A DNA stretch of 64,000 nucleotides, from positions 1 to 64,000 of the forward strand of contig MEPU01000008.1 in NCBI GenBank assembly GCA_001771815.1, read 5' to 3'. The position numbers and the translations under genes are program-made. Source of the stretch: Bdellovibrionales bacterium RIFCSPHIGHO2_01_FULL_40_29 (lineage in GTDB: Bacteria; Bdellovibrionota; Bdellovibrionia; Bdellovibrionales; Bdellovibrionaceae). Shown here piece after piece: positions 375 to 37,040 of the stretch (its first letter is position 1; every line of letters begins with the position of its first letter). The notes beneath the pieces were generated by a model. The model saw only the letters and a program-made list of their open reading frames with translations. It ran no database searches and was not told the DNA's origin.

Positions 375-1742
375 CTAATATGAAACGAACTCAAATAATT
401 GAAACCCAAGCCCCAGCAAAATAACAATAGGGACGACCCATTTTAATGCAAATCTCCAATGCGTGTACATATTGTAACTTGTTGGACTAGCATCTTGAAC
501 AAAAAGTTTTTTCCGATCAGCTTCTGTCAGAGATAAAAGAGCTATAATAACCATTCCTAAGCCTGCAATAGGTAACAGACCATTAATAAGGAATGAATCC
601 ATAGTCTCGATAAATCCCTGTCCATGAACTTTGAAACTCTTAAAAAGCGTGCCTGAAAAAGCTGGGATCACTGTTAATCCCAAAATGAAAAAACCCGCTA
701 TCCACGCGGAAAGAGATCTTTTTAATTCCGGTTTTTTTTCAACTAAGTTCGCCGTCACTGTTTCTAGCAATCCAATACTGGCATTCAGGGCTGCTAACCA
801 CAAACAAAGAAAAAAAATCAGTCCAAAAAAAACGCCACCCTTTTCCCTAGCTAAAAACTGAGGAAGCACTTCGAAAAGCAAACTCGGATCTGTCAGCGGC
901 TTCTTTGAACTTGAAAAAGCAATCGGAAAAATAAGTAACACGGCTAGAATGGATATCAACGTGTCTACAAAAGTTACTCGAAAGCCAATAACCGGCAGTT
1001 TTTCATCTTTTTTAAAATAGGATCCAAATGTAACCATGGTTCCAAATCCTAAAGAAAGCGTAAAAAACACATGTCCCACAGCATGACCAATCGATGCCCA
1101 TGTCAGTTTAGAAAAATCGGGATAAAATAAAAATCTTAAAACATCGGGCGTGGAATCTAAGGACAATGATTTGACTAAAAGAATAATAACAAGAATTCCA
1201 AATAACGGAAGAATCGAAGCAATCCAGCGCTCCACACCTTCGGCAAATCCTTTTACAACAATAACAATTGAAATCAGCAAATGCACACTCGCCAACAGAA
1301 ACTGCAACCAAGAGTTTTGATAGAGAGTCATCATAGATGTTTGACTCAGATATGAAATGGGTTGAGCCTGAAATAAACTCAATAAAAACTGCGTCAAGTA
1401 ATGAAGAACCCATCCGCAAATGACCGAGTAATAGGCCAAAGTCACAGCACTGATAAAAACACTCAGCCATCCAAAAAGATGAATAGGTCTCTTGTACTGC
1501 AATGCCACACGTTTAGATGCTTTTAAAATGCTGACACCCGTAAAGTGCCCAATCATCAATTCTGCGATCAACAATGTTAGTCCCACCGTGAATGCTAAAA
1601 AAACGTAAAGCAGCAAGAAGGCACCACCACCATTTTCTCCAACAATATACGGAAATCGCCATAAATTACCTAGGCCACAGGCGCTACCAATAGCTAAAAG
1701 ATAAAATGACAGCCGATTCCGCCACGAAGATTTTCGAGACAT
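375..1742 (-). CDS. Neurotransmitter:sodium symporter (NSS/SNF) family transporter
   Basis: The 455-residue protein is a Na+-coupled importer of the LeuT-fold NSS family, which usually carries amino acids or related amines across the inner membrane. The first helix carries the family signature GSACGLGNLWRFP at about residues 18-30. This includes the unwound-helix Gly and Asn that in LeuT bind sodium and substrate, and ENGGGAF follows. A TM6-like segment HVFFTLSLGFGTMVTFGSY lies near residue 225. About eleven or twelve hydrophobic segments are visible, the usual number for bacterial members. The ATG overlaps the der stop (TGATG), so it is the last large gene of the tRNA-modification/GTPase operon. 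Its substrate cannot be read from the sequence. Confidence 0.9.
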   Translation of the reverse strand: MSRKSSWRNRLSFYLLAIGSACGLGNLWRFPYIVGENGGGAFLLLYVFLAFTVGLTLLIAELMIGHFTGVSILKASKRVALQYKRPIHLFGWLSVFISAVTLAYYSVICGWVLHYLTQFLLSLFQAQPISYLSQTSMMTLYQNSWLQFLLASVHLLISIVIVVKGFAEGVERWIASILPLFGILVIILLVKSLSLDSTPDVLRFLFYPDFSKLTWASIGHAVGHVFFTLSLGFGTMVTFGSYFKKDEKLPVIGFRVTFVDTLISILAVLLIFPIAFSSSKKPLTDPSLLFEVLPQFLAREKGGVFFGLIFFLCLWLAALNASIGLLETVTANLVEKKPELKRSLSAWIAGFFILGLTVIPAFSGTLFKSFKVHGQGFIETMDSFLINGLLPIAGLGMVIIALLSLTEADRKKLFVQDASPTSYNMYTHWRFALKWVVPIVILLGLGFQLFEFVSY

Positions 1743-3112
1743 CAGTCTGGCGCCTTGCCACCACTTCGAGTTTTCATACAGAAAATTCGAATCGGTGTTC
1801 CGTGAAGATTGTATTCTTGCTTCAAGTGCTTGATTAAGAATCGTCGATAAGATGGACTCACGCCATCAGGATGATTGGCAAAAGCAATGAATGCCGGTGG
1901 TTTTTGATATGTTTGAGTGACATAATAGAACTTCACATTCTTTACACCCCAAACTGGAGCCGGTGTTTTACGAATCGTATCAAAAAAGAAAATATTCAAT
2001 TCATTCGTTGAAATGCGGAAATTCACATTGTCAGTGACTTTTTCGATCATTTTAAAAAGATCTGGAATGCCAGCACCTGTTTCAGCCGAAGTGAAAACAA
2101 TATTCACATCCGTAAAGAAGTGAAATACTTTTTCAACTTGCGCTCTAAAGGTTTCTCGATAGTTTTCAACCTCATGACCTGCCAGATCTGATTTATTGGC
2201 AACAATAATAACACCTTTATGGTCATCTAAGATAGCTTCCATAATTTTAGCATCTTGCTCTGATGGTCCAGTCACGCCATCAATAACCAAAAGCACCATA
2301 TCCGCTCGGCGGATGGATTCTTTGGATTTAAATGCCGAAATAATTTCAACATCTTCTTCCCGTTTTGATTGTCGACGAAGTCCCGCAGTATCCACAATCA
2401 CATAATTTCTGTTATTATAAATAAATGGAGAATCCACAGAATCAACTGTGGTTCCAGCAACTTCTGAAACCAGCATACGATGAACACCTAAAAGACGGTT
2501 GCACAACGAGCTTTTTCCAACATTGGGCTTTCCCACCATAGCAATACGCATTCCCTCTTTCATGTGTGCCGTTTGCTCTGGAATATTCTTGTGCAGCCAT
2601 TCCATGATCTCTGCCAAACCCCCACGTTGTTCAAAAGACGCCGCAACGATATCCAGTCCAAATTCATAAAAATCGGCTTTTGCAATATCTTGCTCGTGCT
2701 GTTTATCGACCTTATTGATAATCAATAACATAGGCTTACCTGTTTGCTTGGCAATTTTAATGATATCACGGTCTTCAGGCACCAACCCTGCTCGGCCATC
2801 CATCACAAGCAATATAAAATCCACTGTGAATAAAAAATCAGTCACCTGCTCTTTGATGAGCTTCGAGAAAAGATCTTGCGACTCAGTCAATCCACCCGTA
2901 TCGATCAAATCAAACTTCTTCCCCCACACATCGACGGGTTCAATCAAGATATCCCGAGTCACTCCAGGTTGATTCTTCACGACTGATTTTCGAGAATTTG
3001 TTAAAATATTAAAGAGCGTCGACTTACCTACATTGGGTCGCCCAATAATGGCAACCTTTGTAGCAAACTGCGCATCATAATCTAAAATCATATTATTTTC
3101 GTTCGATGACAT
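1742..3112 (-). CDS. der: Ribosome biogenesis GTPase Der (EngA)
   Basis: Der is the double-domain GTPase needed for maturation of the 50S subunit. The 456-residue protein has two consecutive G domains. The first has GRPNVGKST near residue 24, DTGG and NKVD. The second has GKPNVGKSS near residue 194, DTAG and NKSD. A C-terminal KH-like domain of about 110 residues follows. Length and domain order match the family. It overlaps the end of era by 20 bp and the start of the NSS gene by 1 bp, so the three are probably translated in a coupled way. Two other ribosome/RNA genes (era, rnc) lie immediately upstream. Confidence 0.97.
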   Translation of the reverse strand: MSSNENNMILDYDAQFATKVAIIGRPNVGKSTLFNILTNSRKSVVKNQPGVTRDILIEPVDVWGKKFDLIDTGGLTESQDLFSKLIKEQVTDFLFTVDFILLVMDGRAGLVPEDRDIIKIAKQTGKPMLLIINKVDKQHEQDIAKADFYEFGLDIVAASFEQRGGLAEIMEWLHKNIPEQTAHMKEGMRIAMVGKPNVGKSSLCNRLLGVHRMLVSEVAGTTVDSVDSPFIYNNRNYVIVDTAGLRRQSKREEDVEIISAFKSKESIRRADMVLLVIDGVTGPSEQDAKIMEAILDDHKGVIIVANKSDLAGHEVENYRETFRAQVEKVFHFFTDVNIVFTSAETGAGIPDLFKMIEKVTDNVNFRISTNELNIFFFDTIRKTPAPVWGVKNVKFYYVTQTYQKPPAFIAFANHPDGVSPSYRRFLIKHLKQEYNLHGTPIRIFCMKTRSGGKAPD

Positions 3113-20314: not shown

Positions 20315-21928
20315 ATGATTATTTTAATTTATATTTTGATTGGTTTTTTTATTGGCGCCTCAGTGATTGCCGGCCTGTTTTTTTTCGTGCGTCGACATAT
20401 TGTTAAAGAGGCTCAAACTGAGGCCGCTGAAATGGTGCAAGAGGCGCAAGAGCAATTCAATCTTGATGAACAAGAACGCCTTCAAAAAACAGAAGAAATG
20501 GAGCTCGATCTTTGGTCAAAGGTCGAAGAAGCCCATTTACTCATTGAACAGAAGTGCGAAGATCTTGAGGCACTGGTACAAACTCGAAAAGCCACCCAAG
20601 ACGAAACGGCTAAAGCTGCTCGTGCGGCCTTGATTCAAAAAGAAAATGAACTTCGCGACCACTCAATCAAACTCAACCAAGCGCAAGCTGCTTTTAAAAA
20701 AATCCAAGATGAAAAGCTAACCCAAGAGCAACACTACAAGGGACTTCTTCTTCAAAAAACTCAACTGGAAGAACCCGAAGTTTTACAATCCCTGGCTGCA
20801 AAACTCATCCAGACTGCTGAAACCGATCGGGATCAGCTGATTTCATCTGTGGAATCAGAAACAAAAGAATTTGCCGAACAAAAGGCGAAACGTATCTTAG
20901 GGCTATGTATTGATCGCTTCGCCAAAGAGATGAGTACTGAACGCGGTATTTCAGCTAGTTATTTCCCTTCAGAAGATGTGCGCGCTATTTTTTGCCAAAA
21001 ATTAAAAGAAATTGTTACTGTCATTCAAACAACAAGTGGTTGTGATATTCATATCGAAGAGAATCCAGAGCCTGATCGTTGGCATTACATTCAAATTATT
21101 GGATACGATCCAGTTCGTCGCGAACTCACGCGTCGTATTTTTGAGAAAATTTTTAAAGACATCGAGAAAACAAAACGCTGTCCAAATCCCGTTGATTTGC
21201 AGCGAACTGCCGAGAATATCAAAACGGAATTACTTCGACAGATCAAACGCGATGGCGATTTGATTGCAAAAGAACTTGGCCTTCAGAATCTGCATCCTGA
21301 AGTTCGTCAGGTCATGGGGTCTCTGCGTTTTCGATACTCTTACACACAAAATCAGTATTTTCACTGCGCAGAAGTGGGTTGGTTTGCAGGTTTACTTGGT
21401 GCTGAAATTGGAGTGGATGTTAAACGCGCTCGTCGTGTCGGTATGCTTCATGATTTAGGTAAGGCCTTGGATCATGAGTTGGATGGAAGTCATGCTATCA
21501 TTGGAGCTGATTTTATCAGCGCGCGTAATGAAGATGTTGATACCATTCATGCTGTCCGCGCCCATCACTATGATGTGCAGCCCGAAAATGAATTGGATTT
21601 CTTAGTGATTGCCGCAGATGCTATTTCAGGTGGTCGTCCTGGTGCTCGTCGCAGCACGATGGAAACCTACACACAAAAAGTTTCTGGGTTGCAAGAAATT
21701 TCAAAACGCTACCAGGGCGTGACGGATGTTTTTGTTCTCAATGGTGGTCGTGAGTGCCGCGTTCTTGTGAATTCAAAAGTTGTTGATGATATGACGGCAT
21801 TAAAACTTTCCGAACAGATTGCAAAAACAATTGAAGATGAAATGCAGTATCCTGGTCAAATCAAAGTTGTCGTTGTTCGAGAATCCATTGCCTCTGAAAG
21901 CACCTCAGGAAAACACGCCAGTCGATGA
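20315..21928 (+). CDS. rny: Ribonuclease Y-like endoribonuclease with degenerate KH domain
   Basis: RNase Y is a membrane-anchored endoribonuclease that starts mRNA decay. The 537-residue protein has one N-terminal helix (about 3-25), a long charged coiled coil (about 30-150), a KH-like region (about 217-290) and an HD domain. MLHDLGKALDHE holds the catalytic His-Asp at 379-380, and AHHYD and AADAISGGRPGARR follow. Alignment by eye to canonical RNase Y puts the KH GXXG loop (GREG) at residues 227-230, where this protein has CQKL, so RNA binding by KH may be lost or altered. AGGA lies 5 nt before the ATG. The stop overlaps the next gene by ATGA. Confidence 0.9.
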   Translation: MIILIYILIGFFIGASVIAGLFFFVRRHIVKEAQTEAAEMVQEAQEQFNLDEQERLQKTEEMELDLWSKVEEAHLLIEQKCEDLEALVQTRKATQDETAKAARAALIQKENELRDHSIKLNQAQAAFKKIQDEKLTQEQHYKGLLLQKTQLEEPEVLQSLAAKLIQTAETDRDQLISSVESETKEFAEQKAKRILGLCIDRFAKEMSTERGISASYFPSEDVRAIFCQKLKEIVTVIQTTSGCDIHIEENPEPDRWHYIQIIGYDPVRRELTRRIFEKIFKDIEKTKRCPNPVDLQRTAENIKTELLRQIKRDGDLIAKELGLQNLHPEVRQVMGSLRFRYSYTQNQYFHCAEVGWFAGLLGAEIGVDVKRARRVGMLHDLGKALDHELDGSHAIIGADFISARNEDVDTIHAVRAHHYDVQPENELDFLVIAADAISGGRPGARRSTMETYTQKVSGLQEISKRYQGVTDVFVLNGGRECRVLVNSKVVDDMTALKLSEQIAKTIEDEMQYPGQIKVVVVRESIASESTSGKHASR

Positions 21929-22965
21929 TTTCAAAAATAAGCTGCGGGGTTGTGATTTATGATGAAATCAGCGATATCAAACGCTTAATCCCCCTTTTGA
22001 AATCCGAATTGTCACAGATTCAAGTGGAATGGGTCTTTATTTTAAATCACGAAGAATCTGAAATTCGTCAGTGGATAAAAACCTGGATTCTCCAGAATTT
22101 GCCAGAAGCTATTTGTTTAGAGAATCCCTCCAATAATCTCGGATATGCCCGCCAATTGGTTTTAGAACAGGCCAGCCTAGATTACATCTACATGACGGAT
22201 CCAGACATAGAATTAATTCCAGGCAGTTTAAACCAACTTATACATCTGGCAGAATCCGATGATATTTTAAAAAACCAGCCCCCAATTATTGGTTACAGTG
22301 GAACTCTGCTTCATAAATCAAACAACTCGTTCTTACAAAATACCTATGATGTCATTTTGAAAATTTCAAAAAATATTCCATTCGCTTTTCAAACTCAACA
22401 ACACTCTGGCTTAGAAAAAGTTGACCATATTCCTTCATGTCATATTCTTTTAAAAAAAAATGATGCCTTGAAAATTGGTGGGTTTTCACCTCTTTTTTCG
22501 AAGGTCGGCGAGGACTTGGATTTCAGTCACCGCGCTTATAATGAAAACTATCGGTTTTCTTTTTTACCGACTTCACAAGCCATTCACTATCAAAATTTTG
22601 GATTTGATAAGTGGCTTTATAAAGTTTTTTTGTTTGGCAAAGTTCAAATTGCTGTTCAAAAGAAAAATCATTCAAAAGGACTTCGGTATTATCGCCTTCT
22701 TCCCTTAGTCTGCCTGTTAGGGCTTGTTGGATTCTCTATCTTATGGACTGATTTATTTTATCTCTTTATGTTTATTGCTTTTATGATTGGTTTTTTAAAT
22801 ATTGGTTTTTTAGGATTTATTTTAACCTTCTTAAGTTATTCCTTGGGCGAATTTTTTGAAATCCTCTCCCCAACCACAGAACTAAAAAATGAAGCAGCAC
22901 TGCAGGCACTAAACCACGATTTAGCTTCGCAAGTTCTGAAAACCAATACTTCGAGTTCTCGATAG
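21925..22965 (+). CDS. GT2-family glycosyltransferase with C-terminal membrane helices
   Basis: A 346-residue GT-A type transferase. It begins directly with the GT2 fold (KISCGVVIYDE), has the nucleotide-sugar metal motif DPDIEL near residue 93 and an acceptor-side GEDLDFSHRAY near residue 193, and ends with two or three hydrophobic helices (about 250-310). That architecture suits a transferase acting on lipid-linked glycans at the inner membrane face. The start overlaps the rny stop (ATGA), so it is likely cotranscribed with rny. Its last 149 bp lie opposite the 3' end of the next, convergent glycosyltransferase. Sugar and acceptor are unknown. Confidence 0.85.
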   Translation: MISKISCGVVIYDEISDIKRLIPLLKSELSQIQVEWVFILNHEESEIRQWIKTWILQNLPEAICLENPSNNLGYARQLVLEQASLDYIYMTDPDIELIPGSLNQLIHLAESDDILKNQPPIIGYSGTLLHKSNNSFLQNTYDVILKISKNIPFAFQTQQHSGLEKVDHIPSCHILLKKNDALKIGGFSPLFSKVGEDLDFSHRAYNENYRFSFLPTSQAIHYQNFGFDKWLYKVFLFGKVQIAVQKKNHSKGLRYYRLLPLVCLLGLVGFSILWTDLFYLFMFIAFMIGFLNIGFLGFILTFLSYSLGEFFEILSPTTELKNEAALQALNHDLASQVLKTNTSSSR

Positions 22966-23575
22966 ATTTTCGTGACGAACGTCCACGACTGAAATTTGAA
23001 TTCTGTCCCTGTTTAAATGCCCGTCTTAAAAAGTGAGACCATGTTTTTTGAGTGGCATGCGTGACAACAAAATCAGAATCAAACTGAATCTCGTACTGAT
23101 TTTGAACCAACTGACGAGCTAAAAATGAATCTTCGCCTCCCCAAAATAAAGCTCCGGACTCAATTTTTTCTAATCTCTGAGGATCGCAATACATAGCAAA
23201 GGCCCCACCCAATAGAGTTTTTTCGGACTGACTGAATTGAAAATGAGATCGCAACCAAGTATTGGCAATAAAATTATGAACTTTTTGAAGATAACTGGTA
23301 TCCTCTGGATCCATGTACGTTCCTGTATAAACATGGGATTTTACCCATTGCTGAGACTGGATGCGCTGACACATTAATTTAAAAACTTCACTTGAAATAT
23401 AACAATCACTGTCTATAAAAATAACCCAGCCTGTATTTTTCTTTAAATAGTGCATTCGATTTTCAGTTGACTGACAGTACTTCATTTCAACATCTAAAAT
23501 ATTTTCCGCCAGAAGCCTTTGACATCTTTGGTAGTCACTCAGATTTGCAGAAAAAACAAATATTCTTGGTTTCAT
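22817..23575 (-). CDS. GT2-like glycosyltransferase
   Basis: A 252-residue protein with a shortened Rossmann start. It lacks the usual SVIIPTYN opening but has the metal-binding FIDSDCYIS near residue 54 and GGEDSFLARQLVQNQ near residue 144, where GT2 enzymes carry the ED(x)L catalytic region. The C-terminal part has a hydrophobic helix (LVPAVLLHFLVLWLG) and a basic end. Its ATG overlaps the stop of the upstream GT2 gene by 4 bp. The last 149 bp overlap the plus-strand GT2 gene on the other strand, which is unusually long for two protein-coding frames. Confidence 0.8.
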   Translation of the reverse strand: MKPRIFVFSANLSDYQRCQRLLAENILDVEMKYCQSTENRMHYLKKNTGWVIFIDSDCYISSEVFKLMCQRIQSQQWVKSHVYTGTYMDPEDTSYLQKVHNFIANTWLRSHFQFSQSEKTLLGGAFAMYCDPQRLEKIESGALFWGGEDSFLARQLVQNQYEIQFDSDFVVTHATQKTWSHFLRRAFKQGQNSNFSRGRSSRKSIENSKYWFSELAKLNRGLVPAVLLHFLVLWLGRGFQKIRPRNNLRRLK

Positions 23576-24288
23576 TTAATAAGTCGCACTCGAATCAATA
23601 CAAATAGAAATGCAAATCCATCTTGAATCACTGACAGTTTTGAAGGCCCAATTCTTTCGCGGTACTGAATATTGAACTCGGACCTGGGCCATTTTTGTTT
23701 CAAACACACGGCAGTGAATTCAATCGAAAAGTTCAATCCCTCTGATTTCAGCTTTAAAATTTGCGGTAGTCTCTGAGCCGTAAAAACTCGTAATCCTGAA
23801 CACATGTCATGGATTGAGTTTTGAAAAAATAACTGAGACAATCCTGAATAAAAAAGATTACCTAACCGTCGAAGAAATGGCATTCCCGTTTGTAAACGCA
23901 AGCGATTGGCATACACAATATCCAGATTCTGATCACGCAAAAGGGTAAACATAGTAATGATATCCTGAAGCGGATAGGTATTATCCAGATCAGCAAAACT
24001 ATACCACGTGGCATTCACACTGGAAAATCCTGCTTTGAGAGCCGCTCCGTATCCTTGTTTTGGACAATTTATAACTTGAATACCAACACTCTCTTTTACC
24101 ATTTTGTGTAGGAGTGATGCTGATTGATCTGTTGAATTATTATTCACAAATATCACACCCAATTCAATTTCAGGAAATTGAGCCTGGAACTGATCCCTAA
24201 ATTGTAAGAGCTCCCGCTGAAATGGTGGAATTGCCTTTTCTTCGTTATAACATGGGATGATAAGTGCAAAACTAGATTTTTCAGCCAT
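23572..24288 (-). CDS. GT2-family glycosyltransferase, DPM1/polyprenyl-phosphate type
   Basis: A 238-residue GT2 enzyme starting FALIIPCYNEEKAI, with VNNNSTDQS, GYGAALKAGF, the metal motif DLDNTYP near residue 101, and DMCSGLRVF near residue 158. This order matches dolichol/undecaprenyl-phosphate sugar transferases, which load a sugar on a lipid carrier for later use by membrane GT-C enzymes such as the one at 28518-29945. The frame is open for another 165 bp upstream, but that stretch overlaps the divergent gene. The ATG at 24288, directly before the conserved fold, is chosen. It leaves a 21 bp gap to the divergent start. Confidence 0.86.
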   Translation of the reverse strand: MAEKSSFALIIPCYNEEKAIPPFQRELLQFRDQFQAQFPEIELGVIFVNNNSTDQSASLLHKMVKESVGIQVINCPKQGYGAALKAGFSSVNATWYSFADLDNTYPLQDIITMFTLLRDQNLDIVYANRLRLQTGMPFLRRLGNLFYSGLSQLFFQNSIHDMCSGLRVFTAQRLPQILKLKSEGLNFSIEFTAVCLKQKWPRSEFNIQYRERIGPSKLSVIQDGFAFLFVLIRVRLIK

Positions 24289-24309
24289 ACAGATGTAGCC
24301 TATTCGCTG

Positions 24310-25842
24310 ATGCAAAAAGTGTCTAGCCCGAATTACTATCGCTATCAAATAATGACTGCTGAGGATCTCTATCCCGCAACGGTTCATCGACGACTGAAAA
24401 AAATATCTCAAAGCCATGCGCAATCCATTCTCTTTGATTGGACGGACTGCCAAAACCCATTGCCTGTTTATGATGGGATTTGGGCGCTATTCTCAGGATA
24501 TAAAACAGAACACTTGCTGACATCTTTCATTCAGCTGTCGCAATTAAAACACCTGACTGAATCTCCTCGTCCTGTTCATTTTCAAATCCGCAATAGTGAA
24601 AACCTCATCGCACTTGATTTCGCACTTTCTCAGATGGATGATTCACCCAAGTGGTCCGTCTCGATTCATTTTTCACCACGCACCCAAGATGACATAGCCA
24701 GTCTGAAGATGCCTTTTCAACCCCGATTTTTCAATTATCAACATTATTTTTGGGACTTTCGAGTTTTCAATCCAGCCCTTAAAAGAAGCCTCACCATCAA
24801 TGATATTCATCACGCACTTCAATTTCAAAAATCCTGGTCCATTCTTAAAATTTTTCAATTTGGACATTGTCGACAGCTAGAAATCTGGAACGATGCCATT
24901 CCAACTCGTCATGAATTAGAGGCCGTGACCACTCCAGCCTGGGAATTTTCAACTTCAGAAAAGAAATTAAAAATCAGTATTGTCATCCCCAGCTTTAATA
25001 ACAGCCCATTTTTAGCCAATGTTATTGAACATCTTGTTAAACAAACTCTTGATCCGGAATTCTATGAGATCATTGTTGTCGAAGATGGCGGCACTGACAA
25101 TTCAAGCGAAGTTATTCAAACCCTTTTTGCAAACTATTCCCAGAGTCTCAATTTGAAGTTTATTTACTGGAGCAAATCTCATCCCACACGTGGAGATCAA
25201 AATTTCTTTCGCGCTGGTTTGGCGCGTAATTTAGGTGTTCAATTTTCTAGTTCTGATCATCTGATTTTTTTAGATTCTGATATCCTTGTTCCCCCTGATT
25301 TTCTAGAAATTTGTTTACAAGAATTAAAGACCAGCGATTTGATTCAATTTCAAAGATTCCATATTCAGCAAGAGTTGAGTTTAAAAAATCCCAGTTACGC
25401 ACAAGTTCAAATCAAGAAGCAAACCTACATCGAAGAGCACAGTTATTGGAATCAACTTTTCCAGTCTCCTCACTGGCAAGATCTTCCCCAGCATTGGAAA
25501 TACACCTGCACCTATGCTCTTGGAATGAAGAAGTCAGATTTTCTGAGCATTGGCCGCTTCAAGAAATATTATGTTTCTTATGGATTTGAAGACACAGACT
25601 TAGGTTACGAATTTCACCGCTTAAATAAAACTTTTAAATTGGTAAAAACGCCGCTCTTGCATCTAACAGCCTATAATCATATGCAGTATAAAAATTCTCA
25701 ATTCAAGCGGACTCAGCTTCTTCGGAAAACGGCAGCTCTTTTTTATCTACAACACTTAGATTCCGAAATTCACCAGACTCTGGGTAATTTTTATCGTTTT
25801 GAACGCAGCCTTATTGATTCTTTTAAAAATTTATTATTATAA
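24310..25842 (+). CDS. Two-part glycosyltransferase: unknown N-domain plus GT2 domain
   Basis: A 510-residue protein. The first 215 residues have no recognised fold: they are mixed alpha/beta, have few charged clusters and no membrane helix. From about residue 220 a GT2 domain begins (KISIVIPSFNNSPFLANV), with VVEDGGTDNSSEV, the metal motif LDSDIL near residue 322, and YGFEDTDLGYEFHR near residue 423. The last feature is common in galactosyl- or chondroitin-synthase-like GT2 enzymes. An alternative ATG lies at 24352. Neither start has a good Shine-Dalgarno sequence. The gene is divergent from the DPM1-like gene and converges with the next one, sharing 6 bp. Confidence 0.83.
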   Translation: MQKVSSPNYYRYQIMTAEDLYPATVHRRLKKISQSHAQSILFDWTDCQNPLPVYDGIWALFSGYKTEHLLTSFIQLSQLKHLTESPRPVHFQIRNSENLIALDFALSQMDDSPKWSVSIHFSPRTQDDIASLKMPFQPRFFNYQHYFWDFRVFNPALKRSLTINDIHHALQFQKSWSILKIFQFGHCRQLEIWNDAIPTRHELEAVTTPAWEFSTSEKKLKISIVIPSFNNSPFLANVIEHLVKQTLDPEFYEIIVVEDGGTDNSSEVIQTLFANYSQSLNLKFIYWSKSHPTRGDQNFFRAGLARNLGVQFSSSDHLIFLDSDILVPPDFLEICLQELKTSDLIQFQRFHIQQELSLKNPSYAQVQIKKQTYIEEHSYWNQLFQSPHWQDLPQHWKYTCTYALGMKKSDFLSIGRFKKYYVSYGFEDTDLGYEFHRLNKTFKLVKTPLLHLTAYNHMQYKNSQFKRTQLLRKTAALFYLQHLDSEIHQTLGNFYRFERSLIDSFKNLLL

Positions 25843-26793
25843 CCGGTCACCACGATCACGTTTATTTTTTAAAATCTCATCCGCCTTCGTAAGCCACTGA
25901 TGTCTATAATACTGAAACGTATTCAGAGTGATTCTTGTAACATGCAAAAAGAAATCTTTTACTTTTTTACGCTCACGGTGATATCCAAACCAAAAGACTA
26001 AACTTAAATACACATCTAAAGCTCGATACCAATAATCCAGACTAGCACCTTCTTTCGAAATCCCGATGCTTCCATAATCGATATCATCCCTTATTTTAGC
26101 CTTACCCCGCCCCTGTTTATATAATTTTTTTGTTAGTGAACTTAAACTTTCAGAAGTATTATGTATCACTGTTAAATTTTCGAGACGCATTTTTAGACCC
26201 AAATGATAGGCCAATAAAAATAATCCCAGCTCACTTCCTCCATAGACAATTTGTTCATCAAACCGCAATTGATGAGTTGTCACCAGATCCTTTTTTACCG
26301 AGAAATGTCCGCCGATTAGATACCGCGTTTCATTACCAGATAAACCATAGGTTCCACGCAGCAACCAGCGCATCTGATTGGTATGATAGGATTTATCAAA
26401 GTATCCCGCATTTTCTGGTAAAGCATAATACCCCCCAATACCAAAAACAGCTTTATCTTGCTGATGCCATGAAATATGTTTTTCGAGCAGAAGCGAATCA
26501 TGAAGCCAACAGTCATCGTCAATAAAAAGGCAAAGATTTGATAGACTCAAATCAAGGCCTTTATTTCGTGCGATATTCACACCTTTTTTTTCAGTCTTAA
26601 CCAATCTCAGGAATAAGCGGTATCCAGACACCAATTTCTGCAACTGCGAATGTTTGTTTTCATCACATGAGTTATCGATGATAACCACTTCAAAATCAGA
26701 TTTCACTTTTTGATTTTGCAAAGAATCCAACAGTATTTTAATTTTTTTAAGCTCACCCAATGTCGGGATAATGACAGTAATAGAATATGTCAT
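25837..26793 (-). CDS. GT2-family glycosyltransferase
   Basis: A 318-residue GT2 enzyme with a standard start (SITVIIPTLGELKKI), IDNSCDENKH, the metal motif FIDDDCWL near residue 90 and GGSELGLFLLAYHLG near residue 183, where the catalytic acid lies. A hydrophobic segment near residues 255-270 may associate with the membrane. Its start shares 4 bp with the stop of the tandem-repeat gene (ATGA), so the pair is translationally coupled and possibly acts together. Donor and acceptor are unknown. Confidence 0.86.
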   Translation of the reverse strand: MTYSITVIIPTLGELKKIKILLDSLQNQKVKSDFEVVIIDNSCDENKHSQLQKLVSGYRLFLRLVKTEKKGVNIARNKGLDLSLSNLCLFIDDDCWLHDSLLLEKHISWHQQDKAVFGIGGYYALPENAGYFDKSYHTNQMRWLLRGTYGLSGNETRYLIGGHFSVKKDLVTTHQLRFDEQIVYGGSELGLFLLAYHLGLKMRLENLTVIHNTSESLSSLTKKLYKQGRGKAKIRDDIDYGSIGISKEGASLDYWYRALDVYLSLVFWFGYHRERKKVKDFFLHVTRITLNTFQYYRHQWLTKADEILKNKRDRGDRL

Positions 26794-27854
26794 CTGAACT
26801 TCTTTATTCGCTTATTGTATTGAAACTGCAGAAACCAGAATACTTTTCGAAGCGGATAGGCCAAATAATTCCACATCAAATGACAACTGAAATAAAAAAT
26901 GCGAATACTCCAACCATGACTTTTATATAGACTCATCAAAACAATGTGCCGAATAAAATAACCCGCTACTAACGCCTGAATTGCGTTTCTCTTCAGAAAC
27001 TGATAACTATCCACAATCAGACCAAACGATTTAAATCCGCTCATCAAAACAATGTGCCGAATAAAATAACCCAATCGCATCGCGTTTCTCTTCAGAAACT
27101 GATAACTATCCACAATCAGACCAAACGATTTAAACCCACTCATCAAAACAATGTGTCGAATAAAAAATCGCACCTGAAAAAGTTCATTTAAAAAATAAAG
27201 TACAACAGAGATCAATTCTTTAAACCGTAAAAACCAAACAAAGTTTGAAATTTTAGCCTTTTGATAAATATGTTTCACATAAGAAAGAGGCGATAGAATA
27301 ATTTTTAAAACCTGAATCAAAAAATAAGCCTGAAACCACGTTCGTTGACGTGAACTCTGTTTTTTGATTTTAAATTCAGATTTTGAATAGAACACTTCAT
27401 TGTACTTAATCTCAGAAATTTTAGCCTTTAAATACTCTTTAGAATGCAGAGCACTTCGATCGAAATCCGCCCCCACAATAAAAGTCACACGAGATAGATC
27501 CATATCGTGATCCCTCAGTTTTTTAAATTCATCAAAAACATTAAAAAAATAATGGCAAATCAGATAAATTCGAAATTGCAGGTCTTGGTCCATCTTCTGC
27601 TTCAACTCAAAAAGATTCTGACTAGAAGCCTTGATAAAATACAAAAAACCTCGCACCTGATGATTCTGAGATATCCGCTCTAGTGAATTTTCGACTTGGA
27701 TCTCTTGGATGCGGCCAAAATGATTGATCTTTATAACCAAAGCATTCTGAGCTTCAAAAGTATCAACAACAGCAAAGGACACTCCTGTTTTCTGCAGAAA
27801 AACGGCTTCAGGAGTCTTTGGGTCACGATGATATATAAGATCAAGAGTATTCAC
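26790..27854 (-). CDS. Unknown protein with C-terminal in-frame tandem repeat
   Basis: A 354-residue protein without a known domain. Residues 1-175 are mixed and soluble-looking. A hydrophobic stretch near 170-215 follows (WFQAYFLIQVLKIIL and similar). From about residue 230 comes a repeated unit beginning FIRHIVLMSGFKSFG and continuing to YQFLKRNA. It occurs twice in full and a third time in part, with linkers of four (MRLG) and seven (IQALVAG) residues. The unit is basic and amphipathic or membrane-interacting. The gene is first in a two-gene unit with a GT2 enzyme. A role in surface-glycan assembly is guesswork from context. The DNA identity of the copies suggests recent duplication. Confidence 0.72.
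   Translation of the reverse strand: MNTLDLIYHRDPKTPEAVFLQKTGVSFAVVDTFEAQNALVIKINHFGRIQEIQVENSLERISQNHQVRGFLYFIKASSQNLFELKQKMDQDLQFRIYLICHYFFNVFDEFKKLRDHDMDLSRVTFIVGADFDRSALHSKEYLKAKISEIKYNEVFYSKSEFKIKKQSSRQRTWFQAYFLIQVLKIILSPLSYVKHIYQKAKISNFVWFLRFKELISVVLYFLNELFQVRFFIRHIVLMSGFKSFGLIVDSYQFLKRNAMRLGYFIRHIVLMSGFKSFGLIVDSYQFLKRNAIQALVAGYFIRHIVLMSLYKSHGWSIRIFYFSCHLMWNYLAYPLRKVFWFLQFQYNKRIKKFR
26932..27166. repeat. In-frame tandem repeat, units of 108 and 99 bp plus a partial copy
   Basis: Copies begin with CTCATCAAAACAATGTG at 26932, 27040 and 27139. The first spans 108 bp and the second 99 bp; they differ mainly by 9 bp of linker, so the reading frame is preserved. The third is only about 28 bp before it diverges. 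Outside the linkers the first two copies are nearly identical over about 75-80 bp. The whole repeat lies inside the coding sequence at 26790-27854. Confidence 0.92.
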
Positions 27855-27942
27855 TCATCCATCATGTCCAAATTCACTTCAGAAGTAAATAAATTGAAAA
27901 AAATATTGCGTGCTTCTAACAGAGATGAAAGTATACTTTTGT

Positions 27943-28521
27943 ATGCAATTAACCATTCCCAGCGACGCTTTTTCTGATGGACAAGTTCGATCTAAAATGT
28001 GGCTCACGCACAGCTTCAATTCGTGGGCAGCAAAGCATTTAAATCCAGAAGTAAGGCTGACACTCAATTGGTATGGCTCCTGGGTTGGAATTGGTCCTTT
28101 GCTTTTACTGTCATCGACGACAGTTCATTTTAACCAGATCAATGTCTTTGACCAAGATCCGACATCTTTAAAAACTTCGTTGATGGTACTCAATCATTGG
28201 TTTATCCAAAACCGTGTTCATGGAGATTCTAAAGACGTTAATACCCATATTCCCGCTCAAGACCCCCACCAATTATTTATTAATACGGCCTGCGAGCATT
28301 TTACCAGTGATAATTGGCTGAAGCTTATTCCAAAAGATTCCTATGTCTTACTTCAATCCACCAATATGACCCATGACGAGCATCTGAATTGTTCTCAAAG
28401 CCTCGAAGATTTTAGAAAGAGATACCACGCGCTGGTCGATATCTTTGAACTGTCGCAATTGGATTTTCACTACACGAATAAAGAGTTCTCGCGATTTATG
28501 CTTTTTGGTCAAAAAAAATGA
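27943..28521 (+). CDS. SAM-dependent methyltransferase-like protein
   Basis: A protein of about 192 residues. An early segment (RLTLNWYGSWVGIGPLLLL) sits where class I methyltransferases bind SAM. It is followed by an acidic strand INVFDQDP (motif II position), LFINTACEHF (motif IV position), a YVLLQSTNM strand and a final RFMLFG strand. The order fits a Rossmann-like methyltransferase, but the first glycine loop is atypical, so activity is not certain. The frame is open further upstream from a GTG at 27910, and an ATG also occurs at 27925. The ATG at 27943 is preferred because the conserved region starts there. The stop overlaps the next gene by ATGA. Confidence 0.72.
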   Translation: MQLTIPSDAFSDGQVRSKMWLTHSFNSWAAKHLNPEVRLTLNWYGSWVGIGPLLLLSSTTVHFNQINVFDQDPTSLKTSLMVLNHWFIQNRVHGDSKDVNTHIPAQDPHQLFINTACEHFTSDNWLKLIPKDSYVLLQSTNMTHDEHLNCSQSLEDFRKRYHALVDIFELSQLDFHYTNKEFSRFMLFGQKK

Positions 28522-29945
28522 TCTCGGATTTTTTTAAGAGTTTCAAACTCAGATCTTACAGCCTTTATATAATGTTTGGGGTTGCAACTGTTTTACTTTT
28601 CCTAAAGGGCATGTCGTCATTTATTACATCGTCAGAGTTTTGGTCGATCTTTTTATCGCAACACCTGCTGCCATTCCAAGATGTTTGGCCATCTGTTTTT
28701 ATGAAGCCCATTTTTCATAGTGTTTTGGCTCTGATTCATCTGCTTGAATTCAGCGACACCAATCATATTTATTTTGCAAAATTATTATTCACATTAAATG
28801 GTATTGCCCAATTCTTCTTGGTTTACTTCCTACTGAATCAGCTTTTTAAAAAATCCTCGTTCTTGAATCTCCTTTTAACTGCATTTCTTTTTTTATCACC
28901 ACTGATTTTGACTCACTTTGATAGAATTCGCAGTGATCAACTGGCTTTAACAGTTATGCTTTTTTATCTTTATTTCATTTATTCACGCCCCTCCGTCCAA
29001 TTTCGGTATCACTTCGCTTTCCTGATGATTTTTCCTTTGATTGGTTTCAAACATATTTATTTTTCTATTCTAGTGCTTTTTTTTATTCCTCTGAAATCAA
29101 CTTTTGATTATTTTAAAACGCTTTCTTTTTTCAAACGCTTCATTATTATTTTGCTTTTTGCAAACGCTCTTGTATGGGGGATTTTTTTAGGGATTCCATC
29201 CTTGAGTTATTTTTTAGCGATTCTGCGCTCAGATTTGAATTTTCGTGGACCTTTGGTTTGGTTAAAAACAGAATGGTTTTTTATTTACTTATCCTTGATC
29301 CCCTTTTTCATTGCACCTTTTCGAAAGTATTTAAAGAACAAGGGCCTTTCAATCCTATGGAAGATACAATGCGTAAGCCTACTGATCATTGTGATCCATC
29401 CTCAAAAGTTTCCCTTTTTCATTGCCAGCTTTCTGCCGCTTATTTACCTAAATGGACTATTTTTTATTCATTACTTAAAAGACACTCAGTTGATTCCCCG
29501 CAGAATTTTCATCACTACAGTTGTAGGGATGTCCTTTTACAATCTCTATTTAGCTCAAAAACACTATCGCATTCTGACAACGAACCAACAGCAATTTGAA
29601 ACTATTAGCGCTCTGTCAAAGATCATCACAGAAAACAATCTGACTTATTTAGATGGAATGGGAGTTCTTCCCACTGGGAAAAACGTGGGTTGCTTTGTCT
29701 CTCCGGAAGATGATCTTTCCAATCAAGCGTGTCTTCAATTTATCAAAGCAGGAACTGCCGACGCTATCATTGTTACCAATCGATTGATGACTTTGGGTTT
29801 TGATTTTTCAACACTGGGAAAATATCAATACCATGCCGCTGGACCAAATCTTTTTATTCATGAACGAATTAAAAAAGATCTCGCCATTGAAAATACGAAT
29901 TGGGCGCCTCCGATTCTGATTTTCAGCTCGGAGCAATTAAACTAG
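28518..29945 (+). CDS. Multi-pass membrane protein, GT-C-like
   Basis: A 475-residue protein with about nine to ten hydrophobic helices and a soluble C-terminal domain of about 120 residues. An early loop carries DVWPSVFMKP after TM1, a place where GT-C enzymes (PMT/ArnT-like lipid-linked sugar transferases) have an acidic catalytic residue. HFDRIRSDQLAL lies in a later loop. The overall topology resembles GT-C transferases that use polyprenyl-phosphate sugars, and a DPM1-like enzyme that could supply them is encoded 4 kb away. The family assignment is inference from topology. It is coupled to the methyltransferase-like gene by a 4 bp overlap. Confidence 0.7.
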   Translation: MISDFFKSFKLRSYSLYIMFGVATVLLFLKGMSSFITSSEFWSIFLSQHLLPFQDVWPSVFMKPIFHSVLALIHLLEFSDTNHIYFAKLLFTLNGIAQFFLVYFLLNQLFKKSSFLNLLLTAFLFLSPLILTHFDRIRSDQLALTVMLFYLYFIYSRPSVQFRYHFAFLMIFPLIGFKHIYFSILVLFFIPLKSTFDYFKTLSFFKRFIIILLFANALVWGIFLGIPSLSYFLAILRSDLNFRGPLVWLKTEWFFIYLSLIPFFIAPFRKYLKNKGLSILWKIQCVSLLIIVIHPQKFPFFIASFLPLIYLNGLFFIHYLKDTQLIPRRIFITTVVGMSFYNLYLAQKHYRILTTNQQQFETISALSKIITENNLTYLDGMGVLPTGKNVGCFVSPEDDLSNQACLQFIKAGTADAIIVTNRLMTLGFDFSTLGKYQYHAAGPNLFIHERIKKDLAIENTNWAPPILIFSSEQLN

Positions 29946-29948
29946 AAA

Positions 29949-31190
29949 CTAATCCACTAAATGACAAGATACTGAAGCCAATACAGTGGAGTCCCCCGTA
30001 GTCGCCACGCCACCCAACCCATCACCAGTCCCTGTTTCCTCGCAGGACTGTAAAACTTCAAATTCTTTATCGACGATTGATGTTGTAAAACTGGTGTCAA
30101 ACTCAGCAGTACTTTGAATACCCACAGGGGCATAGCCTGTTGCACTTCCAACAGCATTTGCATCCCCAACACCCTTTAAAGAAACATTAAATCCTTTAAC
30201 AGACTTCCCCACGGCGGAAACGTCACAGACATAGGTTCCTTTTTTTCTGAAGGTGATTCGATCTGCAGAAACAGAAATCAGGTCAAAGGGATCACTGCCT
30301 CCAACGCTGGTGGCTTCTGACCAGGATACTCGTGCGGTCATTGTCCCCACCACACAATTTCCGGGACTAACCGTCGTGGAAATAACGGCTCGAAAGGCCT
30401 GCATGTTCGATGAAGCCGTTCGCCAAACTACCACATCATGCTTTCCATTATTGGGATCATGGATCTGTCGATCCGGATCCGGTGGAATATTTGATGTGGC
30501 CGTCGCGTTCACTGGTGATTTCGTGGAATCATCTGAAGCTATGGCTAATACAACATCAGGATTTCCCAATCGAATCGGCGTTTTACTCAGCGGATTGGTC
30601 GATGGATTGTAAATAAACCGCGCTGTGATTCGAATTGCAGGATCAATACACGATGGCGGAGATGCTGCACAATAAGGCTCCCAACTGATTTTATATGAAA
30701 AAGGGCATGCATCCACACCGCTTGAATCCGCACCATTAAAAGTCGAACAGGGCTGCCCACTCGGAGTAAAACCACCAGAGGGATATGTTGGCGACAACCA
30801 CTCGGGTGTATTGGTAATTAAAATATTACTAGCCCCGCCTCCGCCAGCATCATAAATAGTATGAATTCTATTTTGCAAACCATCCAGTGCACTGCATGTT
30901 GTTTTTGCTCGCAAACAATTCATCGTGGTATTATTGACCGCATCCCCTAATGTTTGCGCCCATGAAGACGGATCTGTTAATAAGTTAGATAATTTTTTTT
31001 GAATTTCAACAGCGTTAGCCAACATCGTTTGCATTTGTTGCTGTCTGGCCGAATAAATCAAAAGCGTGATCATTACGTAGATCATTAAAAACATCAGAGC
31101 TGCAGCCCCTAAAACTTGAATCAAACTCATGCCTTTTTGGCACTTAAGTTTGTTTATAAAAAAAGAAAACTTTAATTTGTCTGAGTGCAT
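29949..31190 (-). CDS. Prepilin-like secreted protein (atypical class III signal)
   Basis: A 413-residue protein with a type IV prepilin-style leader. A basic N-terminus ends in KCQKG at residue 20, followed by MSLIQVLGAAALMFLMIY. Cleavage would fall after Gly20. Position +5 is Gln rather than the usual Glu, as seen only in some minor pilins. The exported part has several cysteines (CSTFNGADSSGVDACPF, WEPYC, SCID) and a beta-rich, Ig-like second half. It is a tandem paralogue of the upstream gene, sharing the CPF-W-P-C core, and overlaps it by 19 bp. No pilus motor or secretin gene is in the window. Confidence 0.78.
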   Translation of the reverse strand: MHSDKLKFSFFINKLKCQKGMSLIQVLGAAALMFLMIYVMITLLIYSARQQQMQTMLANAVEIQKKLSNLLTDPSSWAQTLGDAVNNTTMNCLRAKTTCSALDGLQNRIHTIYDAGGGGASNILITNTPEWLSPTYPSGGFTPSGQPCSTFNGADSSGVDACPFSYKISWEPYCAASPPSCIDPAIRITARFIYNPSTNPLSKTPIRLGNPDVVLAIASDDSTKSPVNATATSNIPPDPDRQIHDPNNGKHDVVVWRTASSNMQAFRAVISTTVSPGNCVVGTMTARVSWSEATSVGGSDPFDLISVSADRITFRKKGTYVCDVSAVGKSVKGFNVSLKGVGDANAVGSATGYAPVGIQSTAEFDTSFTTSIVDKEFEVLQSCEETGTGDGLGGVATTGDSTVLASVSCHLVD

Positions 31191-32389
31191 GAAAATGTAC
31201 CATATACGCTGGGCTGATCATAGTTAGGTGTTGGCATACCCATTGTAAACGTTGGACCAGGAGCGATCAAGCCTGTCGCTGTCTGACATGTTTGCTCCAC
31301 CACGTAGACCGCTGGCACAGATCCTCCAACGCTCACAATCGGAGTGCTTGTTGCTGTTGCTTGAACCAAACTGGCTTGAGCCGCCGTACCTGTGGCTATA
31401 GAACCTGGAACAACTACCGATGGCGATACCGCTCGAAGTTGAATAGTAAAAGTATTCACAGCCCATCCTACAGCTGTAATTCGACAACTGTAAGTTCCTG
31501 GCATGATGGAAATCTCGCCAGTGGCTATATCCACTGTGACCAAATCAAAACTATCATCCACTTCATTCCAACTTGTTCCGGACTCCGGAGCTGAGGTTTT
31601 ACCTCGAACCCCAAATGTTGGGGATTGCTGGCAATTACCCCCAGGAGTGGCTTCGCCTGTGGGAAGTACGCTATAATTATTTGTCATATTCAGTGTGAAC
31701 GACTTATTAATCGCCTTCGCAGAACGCTTCATCACCACGTCATATTTTCCAGTATTATCCGCGACAGAATCATCAGTATCAAAAGCGCTGGTCGTTAAAT
31801 TTCCTGATCCCAGTGGTAAAGCCGGTGCTTTTGATCCCGGATTGTAAATCAAACGAACTGTGACTCGAATCAGTGGATTAATACAAGTTCCTGTACAGAT
31901 TGGCTCCCAAACAACTTTATAAGTAAAAGGGCACGTATCAACACCGGCTCCCGTGTTGCCATTAAAACCCGTGCATGGTGAACCTTTATCTGAAAAACCC
32001 GCACTATTTCCCGGCCAAGAAGGACTGACTAATGTATTCGCCGGAGGCACAAAATACGGATTTCCCGCATTATCATGCAGAGTTAAATCGCTGACCACAC
32101 CAATCAATGCCGCACAGGTTACTTGATCGCGAATACATACAGCCAAGGGATCCCCTGCCGAATACATCCGCTCCAGAGTTTTATTCCAAGAGCCCTGATC
32201 TGAAATTAAAAATTGAAACCGTGTTTTGAGTTCTCGTAAGGCAGATAACCGATACTGATTATTTTGTTCCTTATTCATGGAGGTGACTAATCCAATCATA
32301 CCGGATGCCACTAAAGCCATTAAACCGGCGGAGATCAAGACTTCAATCAAACTGAAACCTTTACTATTTTTCAGTTTTGTTAACCACAT
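31172..32389 (-). CDS. Prepilin-like secreted protein
   Basis: A 405-residue protein with a canonical type III leader. Eleven residues end in KNSKG, then FSLIEVLISAGLMALVASG, with Glu at mature position +5. It would be cleaved by PilD-like peptidase and inserted in the inner membrane as a (pseudo)pilin. The outer part contains CTGFN, CPFTYKVVWEPIC and CINP, matching the downstream paralogue in spacing, and ends in a beta-rich domain closing with CTQTN. It is much larger than major pilins, so a minor pilin or adhesin-like tip protein is likely. GGGGG lies just upstream of the ATG. Confidence 0.82.
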   Translation of the reverse strand: MWLTKLKNSKGFSLIEVLISAGLMALVASGMIGLVTSMNKEQNNQYRLSALRELKTRFQFLISDQGSWNKTLERMYSAGDPLAVCIRDQVTCAALIGVVSDLTLHDNAGNPYFVPPANTLVSPSWPGNSAGFSDKGSPCTGFNGNTGAGVDTCPFTYKVVWEPICTGTCINPLIRVTVRLIYNPGSKAPALPLGSGNLTTSAFDTDDSVADNTGKYDVVMKRSAKAINKSFTLNMTNNYSVLPTGEATPGGNCQQSPTFGVRGKTSAPESGTSWNEVDDSFDLVTVDIATGEISIMPGTYSCRITAVGWAVNTFTIQLRAVSPSVVVPGSIATGTAAQASLVQATATSTPIVSVGGSVPAVYVVEQTCQTATGLIAPGPTFTMGMPTPNYDQPSVYGTFSCTQTN

Positions 32390-35229: not shown

Positions 35230-35418
35230 TTATTTTGTTTCAGTTGCTGGAGCTTCAGTTGGAGCTGCTACTGGAGCACCTTCAGTTGGAGCAGCCATCT
35301 CAGCAGGAGCTGCAGCTTCAGTTGGAGCCGCTTCTTGTTGAGGAGCGTTCTTTGAACATGTAAATCCTGTTGCAAAGCAAAGTGACAACAACACAGCTGT
35401 AACCGTGATTTTTTTCAT
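35230..35418 (-). CDS. Small Ala/Pro/Thr/Glu-rich lipoprotein
   Basis: A 62-residue protein with a signal sequence (MKKITVTAVLLSLCFATGFTC) whose last four residues GFTC act as a lipobox, so Cys21 would be lipidated. The mature part is low-complexity: repeats of APTEA, AAPAE and APTEGAPVA without hydrophobic core, so it is probably unstructured. AGAGG lies 6 nt upstream of the ATG. At DNA level a string close to CTTCAGTTGGAGC occurs three times. It has its own terminator (35166-35195). An Asp is not at +2, so outer-membrane sorting is possible. Confidence 0.85.
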   Translation of the reverse strand: MKKITVTAVLLSLCFATGFTCSKNAPQQEAAPTEAAAPAEMAAPTEGAPVAAPTEAPATETK

Positions 35419-36245: not shown

Positions 36246-37040
36246 TTAAAAATCCCCATCTAATGATGGAGGCGGAGGTGGTGGTGGAATATCACCAAAA
36301 CCCGAATCAATTCCATACCCCGGTGAACTATACCCTGGTGAACTATCATAATTTATTGGCGGAGGTGGTGGTGGAATTTCCTCAAAACCATCGGTAGCCG
36401 GTGGTTGAAAATCAGGTTGCGGAGGAAATTCATCAAATGCAGCTGGTGGAGGCGGGGAAAATCCACTTCCACTACTACTGCTCCCACTGCTGCTCTGAGA
36501 GCCAGTCGATGTAGCCCCTTTTGCCCATTTGCTTTGTCCCCGTTTTCGAGTTTCAAACCGAGGGCGCTTTTGCACCAAATCCAATTCTTCCATTTCATTG
36601 GCATCACGATTTGGATCAAACTTTTGAGCGATTCTTTCCCGGGTCCGCACCACCTGAATTCGAGCGGATTCACGTTTCTTTTCAATATCTAATTTAGCTT
36701 TTAAATCAGCCTTAAATTCAGGTCCATCATCTGATGGAGATTGCACTTTTTTTTGACGTCGGTGCTCGATCAAACCGCGCTCACGAATGAGCTCCCATTT
36801 TTCTTGATCCTCTAAAAACAGAGAGAGATCCTTTTCACGCTCGTCTTCGAATATTTTTTTTGAAGACTTGTCTTTCTTGAAACTTTGACGACGATTTAAA
36901 TCGTGCTTTGCCTCAGAATTGAGCGATTGCAATAATTGTTCGTCCACGCTTTCAGCACCAAAAACCATCGAGGCTGCAAACTGAGTTGTCAGTAAAATCA
37001 CAATAAAGAATAGATCTAAACTTTTAACCTCAGACTTCAC
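36246..37040 (-). CDS. Secreted Lys/Arg-rich and poly-proline protein, unknown
   Basis: A 264-residue protein with a signal-like N-terminus (FFIVILLTTQFAASMVFG, residues about 11-28; cleavage probable after FGA). A highly charged helical region follows (30-170), then a Ser/Gly spacer (about 175-195) and a tail rich in proline stretches PPPP, PPPPPP and PPPPPPP with tandem SPGY units. Such tails often serve as flexible spacers in envelope proteins or as binding sites. No enzyme domain is present. The opposite strand shows long frames, but composition and signal peptide make this one the real gene. Confidence 0.72.
   Translation of the reverse strand: MKSEVKSLDLFFIVILLTTQFAASMVFGAESVDEQLLQSLNSEAKHDLNRRQSFKKDKSSKKIFEDEREKDLSLFLEDQEKWELIRERGLIEHRRQKKVQSPSDDGPEFKADLKAKLDIEKKRESARIQVVRTRERIAQKFDPNRDANEMEELDLVQKRPRFETRKRGQSKWAKGATSTGSQSSSGSSSSGSGFSPPPPAAFDEFPPQPDFQPPATDGFEEIPPPPPPINYDSSPGYSSPGYGIDSGFGDIPPPPPPPSLDGDF

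Follow-up and report, generated by a model that had tools for sequence, protein, structure and literature searches.

What might a protein with a tandemly repeated tail do within a group of glycosyltransferase genes, and could the length of that tail matter? The question is raised by a gene at 26790-27854 of a 64,000-nt stretch of Bdellovibrionales DNA (this whole stretch is called the window), which belongs to a genome of 2.93 Mb in 13 contigs (G000). A first-pass annotation had placed the gene in a glycan island and had described a duplicated unit in its otherwise unknown, basic and partly hydrophobic product, and had suggested a recent duplication, possible copy-number variation between strains and, as a hypothesis, length- or phase-variable surface assembly. 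The gene and the parts of its product are listed below.

26790..27854, minus strand: repeat-tail protein of 354 aa from the ORF list, with a GTG start and homologues in the genus and beyond
27351..27854, minus strand: N-terminal alpha/beta domain, residues 1-168 (AF2 mean pLDDT 76, pTM 0.75)
27168..27350, minus strand: tail start, residues 169-229 (alignment; low-confidence predicted helix)
27066..27164, minus strand: repeat unit 1, residues 231-263 (33 aa)
26958..27065, minus strand: repeat unit 2, residues 264-299 (36 aa)
26889..26957, minus strand: partial, diverged unit 3, residues 300-322
26793..26870, minus strand: C-box, residues 329-354, NYLAYPLRKVFWFLQFQYNKRIKKFR (alignment; profile match E 1.7e-13)

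A genuine in-frame repeat and its protein

The repeat in the window gene is genuine. At the DNA level, 26980-27073 and 27079-27172 are ungapped copies of 94 nt (93%), a 43-nt repeat family starts at 26922, 27030 and 27129 with spacings of 108 and 99, and the TRF score of the array (345) is far above those of the other three of 4 arrays in the 64-kb window. In the protein, the motif FIRHIVLMS begins at residues 231, 264 and 300, residues 231-258 reappear identical 33 residues on, and a partial third copy follows after another 36. The internal-repeat score reached 150, with a mean of 34.8 and a maximum of 43 for shuffled sequences, which excludes a chance repeat. The duplicated unit of the first-pass annotation is therefore real, and the 33/36-residue spacing agrees with its remark that a 9-bp difference between units keeps the frame. 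Phase variation is unsupported, because whole-unit changes of 99 or 108 bp are unable to shift the frame.

Over 28 residues, copies 1 and 2 are identical, and the 4 of 84 nucleotides that differ are all synonymous (NG86 dN 0, dS 0.27). Such change at silent sites with the protein kept suggests that the unit is selected and that the duplication is not very fresh; judged from these copies, it took place some time ago and is not a fresh slippage event. As a sign of an old and fixed repeat, the first-pass annotation had named equal copy numbers in relatives and strong synonymous divergence, and the outcome is mixed: the repeat number is unequal in relatives, and the dS of ~0.27 between the best two copies argues against a very recent date. 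Elsewhere in the window, minor short tandem repeats were detected by TRF at 35253-35328 and 36315-36346 (scores 57-69), and a 456-aa ORF at 1742-3112 with an internal duplication at a 170-residue offset ranks second of 161 ORFs in repetition.

No usable match to the window protein could be found in Pfam, NCBIfam, PHROGs or PDB sequences, and no Pfam GT2 match was obtained for it or its genus homologues. When the window protein and the stand-alone tails examined were compared with curated families and solved sequences, only weak matches of a composition type appeared. A PSF1_C match (0.011) was set aside as a composition effect, as were the F-box-like_2 and phrog_1813 matches in G117. A small-GTPase fold of the N-domain, suggested by the first model, was not upheld by a model of the N-domain only, whose best structural matches are TIM-barrel-like with Z of 6.1 or less. 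The description of the protein as otherwise unknown is thus correct for the libraries searched, and needs amending in that it is a member of a recognisable phylum-level family.

The glycosyltransferase cassette

The following neighbours of the repeat gene were annotated.

25837..26793, minus strand: GT2-318, GT2 glycosyltransferase (PF00535 E 4.8e-18), ATGA overlap with the repeat gene
24310..25842, plus strand: GT2-510, GT2 glycosyltransferase (PF00535 E 9.7e-24), homologues elsewhere fused to tail and C-box
21925-22965, plus strand: further cassette GT2 gene (Pfam; synteny)
22817-23575, minus strand: further cassette GT2 gene (Pfam; synteny)
23572-24453, minus strand: further cassette GT2 gene (Pfam; synteny)
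27910..28521, plus strand: conserved 203-aa protein (alignment), methyltransferase-like by eye only, with no match in a Pfam search
28518..29945, plus strand: multi-spanning protein (alignment), GT-C-like from an SSEFW motif that follows its first hydrophobic segment and was read by eye, with no confident Pfam match
29949-31190 and 31172-32389, minus strand: two prepilin-like genes (N_methyl PF07963)

Six genomes of the genus carry this cassette, flanked, within the limits of the contigs, by an RNase Y-like gene on one side and an acyl-CoA dehydrogenase-like gene on the other. It contains five GT2 genes, the repeat gene, the GT-C-like membrane protein and prepilin-like genes, with the methyltransferase-like gene found in three of the six. 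The repeat gene is therefore part of a conserved GT2 cassette, as the term glycan island had implied. Its coupling to the adjacent GT2 gene by ATGA, also noted at first pass, was confirmed in the window and in eight of nine pairs overall; the junction in G072 differs. Both the repeat gene and GT2-318 are present in 6 of 14 genus genomes and both are missing in 8, including one (G005) in which the start of the cassette is present on a contig that ends before the two genes.

An empty site was observed in G003 (L038:2274-2345): only ~70 bp separate the RNase Y-like gene from the acyl-CoA dehydrogenase-like gene, and the entire cassette, including the prepilins, is missing. This implies gain or loss of the glycan and prepilin-like genes together, in a single block of roughly 10 kb. 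The RNase Y-like HD protein of the window (20315-21928) is one of two copies in most genus members, the second being located elsewhere with ~30% identity; only the second is found in G001. N_methyl PF07963 was detected in 5 of 7 members of the prepilin-like family (best E 4.8e-6), and prepilin-like genes also occur near the cassette in G072, G083 and G115. The cassette glycan may decorate a pilus-like structure.

Tails and C-boxes across the phylum

Alignments revealed that homologues keep the N-terminal part, the tail start (K184 and P189 are invariant across six genus members) and the C-terminal box, and differ in the middle. The best repeat periods are 20 residues in G002, 33/36 in the window, 44 in G007, 51 in G010, 28 in G012 and, in another genus, 14 in G072, and no significant internal repeat was found in the G034 and G083 homologues by shuffle-tested scoring. 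An RHxxLMxxYKSYG motif shows the window units to be related to those of G007 and G010, whereas G002 and G072 have unrelated units. Using an off-diagonal scoring script, the six genus members ranked 1, 3, 4, 5, 6 and 12 in internal repetition among 161 locus ORFs. Outside the genus, a stand-alone protein in G048 contains sixteen 16-residue units, LHLWKYSPVRLKHWLN, with adjacent units up to 100% identical in DNA, and the corresponding gene of its congener G041 lacks the array (N-terminal part 23% identity, box 76%). Seven 26-residue units were found in G117, where neighbours differ at 37 synonymous and 13 non-synonymous codons, and the array of G112 is broken by a stretch of N where the assembly has a gap. 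Repetitiveness is conserved and the repeats themselves are not, being mostly lineage-specific (14, 16, 20, 26, 33, 44 and 51 residues). The suggested length variability is likewise seen, as genus homologues of 368-520 aa with different internal repeats; with one genome per species, these are comparisons between species.

The tails are much more alike in composition. The window tail, with 21.6% F/Y/W, 2.3% D/E and a net charge of +22, is indeed basic and partly hydrophobic, and 21 tails of about 93 to 376 residues with mostly unrelated repeats contain 14-29% F/Y/W and 1-6% D/E, with net charges of +9 to +66. What the tails have in common is their composition and not their sequence, and composition is probably what selection keeps. 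On the Wimley-White interfacial scale, the mean score per residue is -0.11 for the tail and +0.22 for the N-domain; the score, like the composition, points to the membrane surface for the tail, and for the N-domain it does not. A multi-spanning protein scores the same as the tail, which means that the scale cannot separate surface-lying from inserted segments, and a few homologues contain windows near the membrane-span threshold. When the tails were examined as amphipathic helices, the pattern was not consistent from member to member; the units of G072 seem closer to strands (z 4.2 at 160 degrees).

The C-box (consensus YPFRKVYWFxxFQYxKRIKK) was captured in a 26-residue profile built from eleven of the sequences, the other matches being independent; 21 of the 369 phylum genomes contain a match. 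The match in the window protein, itself one of the profile builders, finishes at its last residue. Of the 27 matches in the fetched loci, 26 lie at the protein C-terminus, ending no more than 28 residues before the stop, and the other is an internal duplicate in G112. A scan of 84,980 species genomes with the window protein alone gave no match, and a scan with a profile yielded four members, all in MAGs that correspond to genomes already in the set. No relatives were found in phages, viral contigs or plasmids, the plasmid search being one with the repeat DNA only.

Fusions of tail and C-box to GT2 enzymes occur in other families of the phylum: the partner is a GT2-510 homologue in G047, G052, G056, G113, G115 and G304, and in G112 it is a homologue of GT2-318. 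Elsewhere, tail and box stand alone. Among genomes of the family, the C-box was detected in 9 of the 10 that have a GT2-510 homologue and in 0 of the 56 that lack one, counts that are uncorrected for shared ancestry. Taken together, the fusions, the ATGA overlap and this co-occurrence tie the tail to glycosyl transfer.

Several further C-box arrangements were observed. A second kind of stand-alone C-box protein (family f10: L072:4163-5293, L097 and L098) has few or no repeats and an N-terminal WLSFE-type domain, for which no Pfam match was obtained in the one member scanned. Neighbouring proteins that are radical SAM-like by eye occur in L101, L102 and L110 (G048, G041 and G117) and in L109 (G304), and in G304 one such protein has a C-box fused to it. 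An orphan C-box fragment in G002 (L011:1500-1632; G002:C1:2377860), a 57-codon open frame on the minus strand between transglycosylase-like and BipA-like genes, is probably the relic of a second copy.

A putative membrane tether and its rivals

The reading that we prefer, with roughly even chances of being right, is that the gene product is a cytoplasmic protein that tethers or scaffolds surface-glycan glycosyltransferases at the membrane surface, with a reach that varies. The N-terminal alpha/beta domain is followed by an F/Y/W- and K/R-rich, D/E-poor tail, which would lie along the cytoplasmic membrane on its inner side, and the C-box would dock either to a common partner or to the membrane itself. 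Tail length would set the reach of the cargo, and in-frame tandem duplication would lengthen the tail, with selection holding its composition and not its sequence. Support comes from GT2-318 as a fixed partner (eight of nine overlaps, identical presence and absence in the genus) and from purifying selection on the duplicated units (synonymous to non-synonymous, 4:0 in the window and 37:13 in G117), together with the GT2 fusions, the C-box co-occurrence, the shared composition and the interfacial scores described above. The lack of consistent amphipathicity, the equal interfacial score of a multi-spanning protein, the near-threshold span windows and the AF2 model of the window tail, a helix of low confidence, speak against it.

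The main rival is a WbdD-like molecular ruler, in which the tail would hold polymerising enzymes docked at the membrane apart from an N-terminal domain that ends or modifies the chain, and tail length would determine glycan length. WbdD of E. coli O9a and its counterparts in Klebsiella O3, O4, O7 and O12 have been described as having an N-terminal domain joined by an extended spacer of variable length to a docking region at the C-terminus, and are encoded in glycan clusters as stand-alone proteins or fusions to GT modules (PMC11231755). The window protein, with its presumed docking region, GT cassette and the fourfold spread in tail length among its relatives, resembles this layout. However, WbdD-type proteins are coiled-coil rulers of ABC-transporter-dependent O-antigen assembly, whereas the tails, with few acidic residues, no consistent amphipathic period and a low-confidence predicted helix, appear unlike a coiled coil. 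Pfam gave no match to a kinase, methyltransferase or other terminating domain in the window protein, and the N-domain fold matches stay at the low Z values given above. In addition, neither an ABC transporter nor a terminator activity was identified, genus members with tails of different length have the same number of GT genes, and the aromatic, cationic spacer of lineage-specific repeats favours lying on the membrane, not standing off. A ruler of this type is considered unlikely.

Neutral drift, in which a duplication-prone, low-constraint sequence at the protein end would vary in length without any role, could account for periods and unit sequences that differ in nearly every lineage and for the difference of a whole 16-unit array between the congeners G048 and G041. 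It is rather improbable in view of the purifying selection on duplicated units, the composition shared by unrelated repeats and the C-box, which is always kept beyond them. Slightly less probable still is a cationic aromatic tail that binds the pyrophosphate and isoprenyl parts of lipid-linked glycan intermediates and so feeds or counts substrate, like PglH on a larger scale: the tails are enriched in the residue types of the PglH ruler helix of Campylobacter jejuni, which combines membrane attachment and pyrophosphate binding by basic residues with a Phe-isoprenyl contact at the membrane face of the glycosyltransferase (PMC5792488), but that helix is short, amphipathic and single within the catalytic domain of a GT-B enzyme, whereas the tails are long C-terminal repeats without overall helical amphipathicity on GT2 or partner proteins, sometimes on a separate protein. 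GT2 glycosyltransferases themselves (PF00535) are neighbours and fusion partners of the tail, and the window protein differs from them in having no GT2 domain.

Returning to the tether, a broader interpretation is possible, although less probable than the tether itself: Bdellovibrionota may possess a new class of modular, membrane-lying C-box tails. Recurrent tandem duplication would adjust their length, and glycan-assembly reach or product length could thereby change quickly between species, with the sequence free and the composition selected. An aromatic, positively charged and rapidly re-duplicating tail next to or fused onto Bdellovibrio-type sugar-transferring enzymes is apparently undescribed, and no account of such tails was found in the papers searched on Bdellovibrio for glycosyltransferases with tandem repeats or for pilin glycosylation. 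Most of the length-tuned modules known from glycan assembly are coiled-coil rulers. A tail of unrelated sequence that is regrown from varied units, and that moves between GT2 enzymes and stand-alone proteins in a phylum with many predatory bacteria, would represent a natural series of length variants, which would allow a direct test of protein length against glycan architecture, and the C-box provides a searchable 26-residue marker for these cassettes.
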